Assembly: GCA_020853895.1 (NCBI GenBank)
Contig: JADYYB010000066.1
Coordinates: forward strand, 1-37,444
DNA length: 37,444 nucleotides
Reading direction: 5' to 3'
Source: Bauldia sp.
Lineage (GTDB): Bacteria > Pseudomonadota > Alphaproteobacteria > Rhizobiales > Kaistiaceae
Positions 9,944 through 26,483 of this stretch are shown one piece after another. The notes beneath the pieces were generated by a model. It saw only the letters and a program-made list of their open reading frames with translations. It was not told the origin of the DNA and searched no databases. Made by a program: the position numbers and the translations under genes. Position 1 is the stretch's first letter. Each line of letters begins with the position of its first letter.

Positions 9944-10015
9944 GGCAGGGGGTTACAACTGGTGACGGTCGCGCCGCAAGCCTGGAGCCTGTGCTCGACC
10001 ACGAGAGGACGAGTC

Positions 10016-10143
10016 CCGTCTCCCCGGTGGGGAGAGGGTTAGGGTGAGGGGGTACAGGTCCATCCGGAGAGGGCGGTCGAGCAGACCTATCCGGATGGGT
10101 GGAGCCCCCTGACCCCAGCCCTCTCCCCGGCGGGGAGAGGGGG
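10016..10143. repeat. Long imperfect inverted repeat (intergenic palindromic element B)
   Basis: The left arm starts TCTCCCC-ggt-GGGGAGAGGG, then TTAGGGTGAGGGGG and CATCCGGA. The right arm (10088-10143) is its imperfect reverse complement, with TCTCCCC-gcc-GGGGAGAGGG, CTGGGGTCAGGGGG and CATCCGGAT. The unit sits between ptsP and prfA on the same strand. Similar CTCTCCCC-type repeats are, from memory, common in intergenic regions of many proteobacteria. Confidence 0.75.
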
Positions 10144-26012: not shown

Positions 26013-26071
26013 CTTAACCTCCCCCTTGCGGGGAGGTCGAAACCGCCGTTTCAGGCGGTTTCGGGAGGGGG
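26013..26071 (+). repeat. Left 59-bp arm of the DUF559 unit (double hairpin)
   Basis: This arm contains two perfect hairpins: ACCTCCCC-cttgc-GGGGAGGT, then CGAAACCGCC-gtttca-GGCGGTTTCG, ending GGGAGGGGG. It also lies just after secA and could serve as its terminator. It pairs with the right arm at 55 of 59 positions. Confidence 0.85.
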
Positions 26072-26078
26072 GTAGGCC

Positions 26079-26445
26079 GTGGGGCACCGCACGATCCGGC
26101 CGGACAAGCGCCGCCTGGCGAAGGAGTTCCGCTCGCCCATGACCGAGCCCGAACTCCGTCTCTGGCTCACGATCCGCAACGGCGGGCTATCGGGTCTCCG
26201 CTTCCGCCGACAGGCTCCCTATCGTCGACTTCCTCTGCCTAACGGAGCGTTTGATCCTCGAGGTCGACGGCAGCCAGCACTGGTTTGACGAGAATGCCGA
26301 GAAGGACGCACGGCGAACCCGTTGGCTGGGGTCCGAGCGCTTTCGGATTCTGCGCTTCTCGAACCACGATATCCGCACCAACCTCGGCGGCGTCTGCGAC
26401 GCCATCCTGGCGGCGCGGTTGCGACCCCCTCCCGAAAACGGCTGA
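26079..26445 (+). pseudogene. DUF559 endonuclease-like gene, frameshifted
   Basis: The first frame (GTG 26079) encodes the family N-terminus: LAKEFRSPMTEPELRLWLTI and GLRFRRQAP. The family then continues with a segment like IGPYIVDFLCL. Here the sequence jumps from RQAP into another frame at 26221, which reads IVDFLCLTERLILEVDGSQH and on through RFRILRFSNHDIRTNLGGV to a TGA at 26443-26445. The missing IGPY-like codons and the frame change fit an 11-nt deletion at 26219-26221. The nuclease-like core (DFLCL..LILEVDGSQHW) is therefore out of frame. The gene lies inside 59-bp inverted repeats and its stop falls in the right arm. A sequencing error is less likely, because conserved residues are missing too. 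Confidence 0.85.
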
Positions 26446-26483
26446 AACGCCGTTTTCGACCTCCCCGCAAGGGGGAGGTTAAG
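26425..26483 (-). repeat. Right 59-bp arm of the DUF559 unit (double hairpin)
   Basis: Read on the minus strand it begins CTTAACCTCCCC-cttgc-GGGGAGG like the left arm. The second hairpin is CGAAAACGGC-gtttca-GCCGTTTTCG. The four differences from the left arm form two compensated base pairs (C-G to A-T and C-G to G-C). Confidence 0.85.

Follow-up and report, generated by a model that had tools for sequence, protein, structure and literature searches.

Genes encoding the small DUF559 domain (PF04480) commonly lie between two inverted, REP-like repeats, which we call arms, and arm families multiply in genomes holding the matching DUF559 gene, the exceptions being some sparse arm types and one genome (G102). 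Our best reading, to which we give a probability of about 0.62, is a REP/REPIN system in which a Vsr-like PD-(D/E)XK nuclease takes the place of the RAYT enzyme; the binding, nicking and DUF559-driven dispersal that belong to this reading are inferred. The data suggest that DUF559 is widely partnered with families of mobile repeats, an association apparently not described before; we found no paper linking DUF559 to REP-like repeats in the open-access literature searched, subscription papers being outside the scope of the search.

The window (the whole stretch of DNA analysed, 37,444 nucleotides of a Bauldia sp. contig) had been described earlier from its sequence alone. That preliminary description reported 59-bp inverted arms that differ only by two compensatory swaps in one hairpin, at a place between secA and an L,D-transpeptidase gene. 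Both claims held on re-examination of the sequence, the neighbours being secA and an L,D-transpeptidase-like gene. The arms at 26013-26071 and 26425-26483 are identical at 55 of 59 positions, and the mismatches at arm positions 31, 34, 43 and 46 amount to two exact base-pair swaps (C-G to A-T and C-G to G-C), both inside one 10-bp stem (26038-26047 with 26054-26063, loop GTTTCA) that is perfect in either arm. In a simulation that placed four random changes among the 59 positions, only 38 of 3,000,000 trials put all four within the stem with its pairing still perfect. Each arm, folded as single-stranded DNA, gives two hairpins (z about -5) and, after them, a G-rich tail. The features of the window are:

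26013..26071, + strand: left arm, a REP-like repeat with outer end CTTA, hairpin 1, hairpin 2 and a G-rich tail toward the gene
26017..26037, + strand: hairpin 1 of the left arm, ACCTCCCC-loop-GGGGAGGT, almost invariant in the family
26038..26063, + strand: hairpin 2 of the left arm, 10-bp stem with loop GTTTCA, the covarying portion
26079..26445, + strand: remnant of a DUF559 (PF04480) gene, split between frame 26079-26288 (N-terminal part) and frame 26251-26445 (C-terminal part)
26425..26483, - strand: right arm, the left arm inverted
26433..26458, - strand: hairpin 2 of the right arm, differing from its left-arm counterpart by two swapped base pairs
26459..26479, - strand: hairpin 1 of the right arm
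10013..10142, no strand given: REPIN-like gene-free inverted pair of a second repeat family of the genome (C190 type), CCCTCTCCCC..GGGGAGAGGG plus GGGTGAGGGGG, cognate of the DUF559 gene on contig C190
32769..32797, no strand given: CTTAACCTCCCCCTTGCGGGGAGGTTAAG, the fused outer halves of two arms, forming a single palindrome

The DUF559 gene of the window is frameshifted, which corrects the preliminary description. Pfam finds positions 4-41 of PF04480 in one frame and positions 55-106 in a second, with the break at about 26220 (26190-26240), in the conserved QxPIGxY / PIGPY region. Since the domain is spread over two frames, this copy is probably a pseudogene, or else the assembly is wrong at that place; copies with an intact frame are present elsewhere in the same genome. 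The palindrome CTTAACCTCCCCCTTGCGGGGAGGTTAAG is probably the scar of a deletion within a REPIN. In genome G063 the secA/L,D-transpeptidase junction holds an arm pair without a gene, which leaves the exact history of the window site undecided.

If other DUF559 genes lacked such arms, the association proposed in the preliminary description would have been refuted. We searched for PF04480 in three sets of genomes, 81 from the order, 41 from relatives and 150 from the phylum, and took as the arm measure the best local alignment between the 300 bp upstream of the domain and the reverse complement of the 300 bp downstream, a gene counting as armed at a score of 35 or more. The idea survived: in Pseudomonadota 102 of 139 DUF559 genes were armed (81/110 within the order, 13/16 elsewhere in the class and 8/13 in other classes), against 2 of 263 control genes from the same loci under the same measure (Fisher p 9e-61). 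Among short control genes 2/134 were armed, and a second control, Vsr (PF03852), itself a related nuclease, gave none at the 29 testable loci out of 30 taken. These two results rule out the possibility that any small intergenic gene is flanked by REPs. A set of named genomes from several phyla yielded 50 armed loci out of 77 (78 were testable and 51 scored, one of which, L258, was dropped as its score ran through a stretch of N), with Mesorhizobium, Luteimonas, Pseudoxanthomonas, Dyella, Variovorax and Sphingopyxis among the carriers, together with metagenome-assembled genomes of Chloroflexota, Nitrospirota, Planctomycetota and Gastranaerophilales. We consider the association and its breadth to be shown.

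Despite their sequence differences, the arms follow a common grammar, namely a hairpin CYCTCCC-loop-GGGAGRG, in many cases a further hairpin, and a G-rich tail in versions such as GGTGAGGG, GGATGAGGG and GGGAGGGG. REP-like repeats with CCCTCTCCC...GGGAGAGGG...GGTGAGGGG accompany DUF559 genes in several phyla, and the literature searched yielded no enzyme that mobilises them. The units of arm, gene and arm have a median length of about 500 bp. Hairpin 1 is outermost in 57 of the 102 armed cases, reversed in 12 and central or unclear in 33; the loci L172, L173 and L134 have their arms turned round, with the tail outside and hairpin 1 beside the gene.

The same alignment measure detected no arms at 37 of the 139 DUF559 genes. 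In the tree the bare genes are dispersed, 33 of them requiring 28 changes, a scatter that fits arms having been lost or having decayed repeatedly. Within one genus, four genomes share an arm-less DUF559 gene at a conserved locus (L047, L151, L157 and L158), and a relative of the L157 gene in the same genome, L194, is armed. A single genome may contain at least eight diverged DUF559 genes.

In the window's own assembly (G000, 3.2 Mb in 277 contigs) all four DUF559 genes lie between arms, which belong to three families: the window-type arms of the window and of contig C110, those of C190 (CCCCTCTCCCCGGAGGGGAGAGGGTTAGGGTGAGGGGG) and those of C114 (CCCCTCCCCC...GGGGGAGGGTTAGGGAGGGGG). A BLAST search with the left arm gave 77 matches in this assembly, mostly in inverted, REPIN-like pairs of about 160 bp, so that the arms are members of dispersed repeat families and not private to the window's DUF559 gene, the other point on which the preliminary description needed correction. 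Twenty of the 77 places were read and are gene-free elements of 152-182 bp, composed of CTTAACCTCCCC-loop-GGGGAGGTCGAA, a second hairpin, TTCGGGAGGGGG, an unrelated spacer of about 50 bp and then the mirror image; the whole element folds as one long hairpin. This is the layout of a REPIN. Between the two arms of one element the outer 27-29 bases mostly agree and the loop variants TTGC, TTGA and TCGA are usually matched, while hairpin 2 is usually unlike.

Hairpin 2 came in 27 distinct versions among the sequences read, and its variable pairs were Watson-Crick at a rate of 0.87 across the repeats of G000, compared with a mean of 0.55 and a maximum of 0.68 in 2000 shuffles. The preliminary idea would also have fallen had covariation been confined to the window's own pair of arms; it passed this test as well. 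As a separate observation, hairpin 2 falls into two classes in the gene-free elements of G000 (loci L104-L122), one of which always shows a G-G mismatch at its sixth pair; in many of these elements a hairpin of one class is combined with a hairpin of the other.

Arm families are matched to DUF559 lineages. Between genomes, arm similarity climbs with the identity of the DUF559 proteins, from about 0.33 (below 45% identity) through 0.42 (50-60%) and 0.70 (60-70%) to 0.84 (above 70%; Mantel p 0.001). In a test that relabelled arms within genomes, the best protein partner was also the best arm partner in 752 of 1445 cases observed, where the null gave 565 on average and 678 at most. Part of this matching is due to common descent of whole units. 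Counting the rows of one search with five arm types, C190-type arms occupy 57 places in G000 and none in G063, and L048-type arms 57 places in G063 and none in G000; the sparse types L060, C114 and L052 occupy 9, 3 and 2 places. Among members of the family, those holding a DUF559 gene with window-type arms contain 6-28 matches to the window-type repeat (median 18) and the others 1-17 (median 1; p 0.0002), with G102 as an exception that contains many such repeats and lacks the matching gene.

The units relocate as wholes. In genome G071, the units L046 and L077 are near-identical through both arms and unrelated outside, and the same holds for L133 and L178, which come from two species of one genus and are alike through both arms; identity between unit copies ends at the outer edge of the arm. 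Coding dS is 0.37 for the first pair, in which the arms and short stretches just inside them are nearly unchanged, and 1.3 for the second. The arms are thus changing more slowly than silent sites, which shows constraint on them. Filled and empty sites were found in another genus: the unit is present in G094, G101 and G098 and missing from G245 and G246, where the same flanks enclose 30-47 bp with no arm at all, and G102 has a lone arm at this site. Over the 200 kb compared between G094 and G101 there was one clear REPIN difference, present in G101 and not in G094, with ragged ends. No target duplication was recognised at L046/L077 or L133/L178, the empty-site junctions have diverged too far for a footprint to be read, and two automatic scans of overlapping loci gave no exact insertion footprints.

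The DUF559 protein is under purifying selection, with dN/dS of 0.09-0.3 in the diverged pairs where it was computable. Of the armed copies 97/102 are intact, with residues of catalytic type conserved, and nearly all of these keep R9, E16, R35, D45, E56, D58, H62, D71, R74 and R87 (numbering of the C110 protein); R9, E16, D45, E56, D58, H62, D71 and R74 are invariant in 60 sequences. Its predicted structure (pLDDT 92) matches 3hrl (Neisseria NGO0050), the homing endonuclease I-Bth0305I (3r3p) and Vsr (1vsr). By Pfam the protein matched DUF559 (PF04480) and, weakly, MTES_1575, with no match to the Vsr family profile (PF03852). The Y1 transposase domain (PF01797) was absent from 10 of the 12 unit-carrying genomes tested, G000 included; a RAYT acting in trans was rejected, as no Y1_Tnp was present in nine tested genomes of the window's family. 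A reading as a defence system was dropped, the PADLOC match being merely weak (mREase_II, E 5e-4).

REP/REPIN repeats with a dedicated RAYT enzyme (TnpA-REP, a Y1 HUH transposase) have been described (PMC3116915, PMC3733652), and the likeness to them that the preliminary description had drawn holds for anatomy and distribution. Both systems have a small single gene flanked by inverted REPs (here 102/139 versus 2/263 in controls), gene-free inverted REP pairs dispersed in the genome (not for every unit, the C114 and L052 types having 2-3 places), mostly one gene copy per repeat family with several families per genome, and a hairpin with an unpaired end. They differ in the enzyme, which here is an unrelated PD-(D/E)XK Vsr-like nuclease (PF04480) and not an HUH Y1 protein (PF01797), in the lack of a constant GTAG tag (among the gene-free pairs read, only some have GTAG after the tail), and in the second, covarying hairpin and G-rich tail that DUF559 arms often have. 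As the enzyme is unrelated, this is not a RAYT system, despite its REP/REPIN-like anatomy and distribution. The CGTC-tagged REPs, also alphaproteobacterial REP families and apparently without a dedicated transposase (Di Nocera et al. 2013, PMC3733652), are distinct repeats, the DUF559 arms seen in this analysis having no constant CGTC tag.

I-Bth0305I (PDB 3r3p) and Vsr (PDB 1vsr, 1cw0) share with DUF559 the fold, and the invariant acidic and His residues expected of it are present, but they are a mobile-intron protein and a mismatch repair enzyme, respectively. With classical transposons and MITEs the DUF559 units have terminal inverted repeats in common. Caulobacter VsrA (CCNA_02930) contains a DUF559 domain and is Vsr-like, but it has been studied as a presumed repair nuclease (PMC12907096); in a term search, neither palindromes nor inverted repeats nor transposition turned up in that paper. 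The same two-hairpin arm is seen in Rfam RF01762, whalefall-1, proposed to be a non-coding RNA and known from whale-fall metagenomes alone (PMC2864571), whereas the motif linked to DUF559 is a dispersed repeat. The window arms score 27.5 and 25.3 bits and the best arm elsewhere 35.7, all under the gathering threshold of 37; matches of up to 35.7 bits fall in the arms L105 492-548, L110 543-597, L178 3081-3134 and L056 4832-4885. Conceivably whalefall-1 is a REP-like repeat and not a non-coding RNA gene.

In our best reading, the window feature would be one decayed member of a widespread two-part element, made up of a small gene for a stand-alone DUF559 nuclease, enclosed by a pair of inverted REP-like arms, and of many gene-free, REPIN-like arm pairs dispersed in the same genome. 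The nuclease would recognise the arms of its own repeat family in their folded single-stranded form, with hairpin 1, hairpin 2 and G-rich tail, and nick DNA at or near them, so that arm pairs would be copied into new intergenic sites, a moving pair occasionally carrying the DUF559 gene along. Recognition of a folded form, already suggested in the preliminary description, remains an inference, as do the cutting of single-stranded REP DNA and movement by DUF559; no excision, insertion or DNA binding was observed. With two corrections, then, the earlier interpretation was supported overall. What speaks against the best reading are the lack of such observations and of any recognised target duplication, the 37 bare genes out of 139, the sparse arm types, G102 and the reversed arms in about a tenth of the units, and other transposases acting in trans are not excluded. 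A bolder version, for and against which we see much the same weight, would make DUF559 proteins the mobilising enzymes of a cross-phylum REP superfamily defined by CYCTCCC-loop-GGGAGRG, a further but optional hairpin and a tail rich in G, for example GGTGAGGG; a Vsr-like PD-(D/E)XK nuclease, working on ends folded as single strands, would then drive a class of mobile element that evolved separately from the HUH RAYTs.

The main rival, which we consider unlikely, is a selfish gene of the homing type: DUF559 would cut gene-free arm pairs (REPINs) or gene-less alleles, and repair, using the arms as homology, would insert a copy of the gene, whereas the REPs would spread by other means; copying into a cut allele is likewise inferred. 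In its favour, the nearest solved relatives include the homing endonuclease I-Bth0305I, the gene-free arm pair of G063 at the secA/L,D-transpeptidase junction is what would be expected of an empty REPIN target, and one and the same site holds related DUF559 genes in different species (L144 of G097 stands at the L172 site). However, homing into fixed sites leaves unexplained why arms are lineage-specific, dispersed at unrelated sites and tied in number to the matching DUF559, and the empty sites of G245 and G246 are without any arm. It is less likely still that the arms are inverted ends for an unrelated transposase acting in trans, with DUF559 as a passenger or regulator. The MITE-like structure with terminal inverted repeats would suit this, as would the fact that a unit type can exist without many copies, but one passenger with many arm families across phyla is improbable, arm family tracks DUF559 similarity, and no Y1 transposase is present in 10/12 relevant genomes.

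We give as little credence to DUF559 being a host nuclease for hairpins or mismatches that polices REP-like palindromes, or that serves in deamination repair as proposed for Caulobacter VsrA, its proximity to REPs being regulatory. The Vsr-like fold supports such a role, and so does the DNA damage response that VsrA causes upon loss of a methyltransferase (PMC12907096). Against it, true Vsr genes have no arms (0/29), the units duplicate and differ between sister species, and at least eight diverged DUF559 genes are possible per genome. Finally, the swaps might stem from ordinary gene conversion or replication through the palindrome, the link with DUF559 being fortuitous. The two window arms do differ by only two base pairs, but this explanation is all but excluded; family-wide covariation together with the association against controls rules out chance or gene conversion alone.

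Returning to the best reading, should the repeats prove to be tied to DUF559, their spread would be explained and PF04480, a family of unknown function, would be given one. REP biology would at the same time gain a second, unrelated type of enzyme. The DUF559 protein and its hairpin substrate would form a ready pair for testing at the bench.
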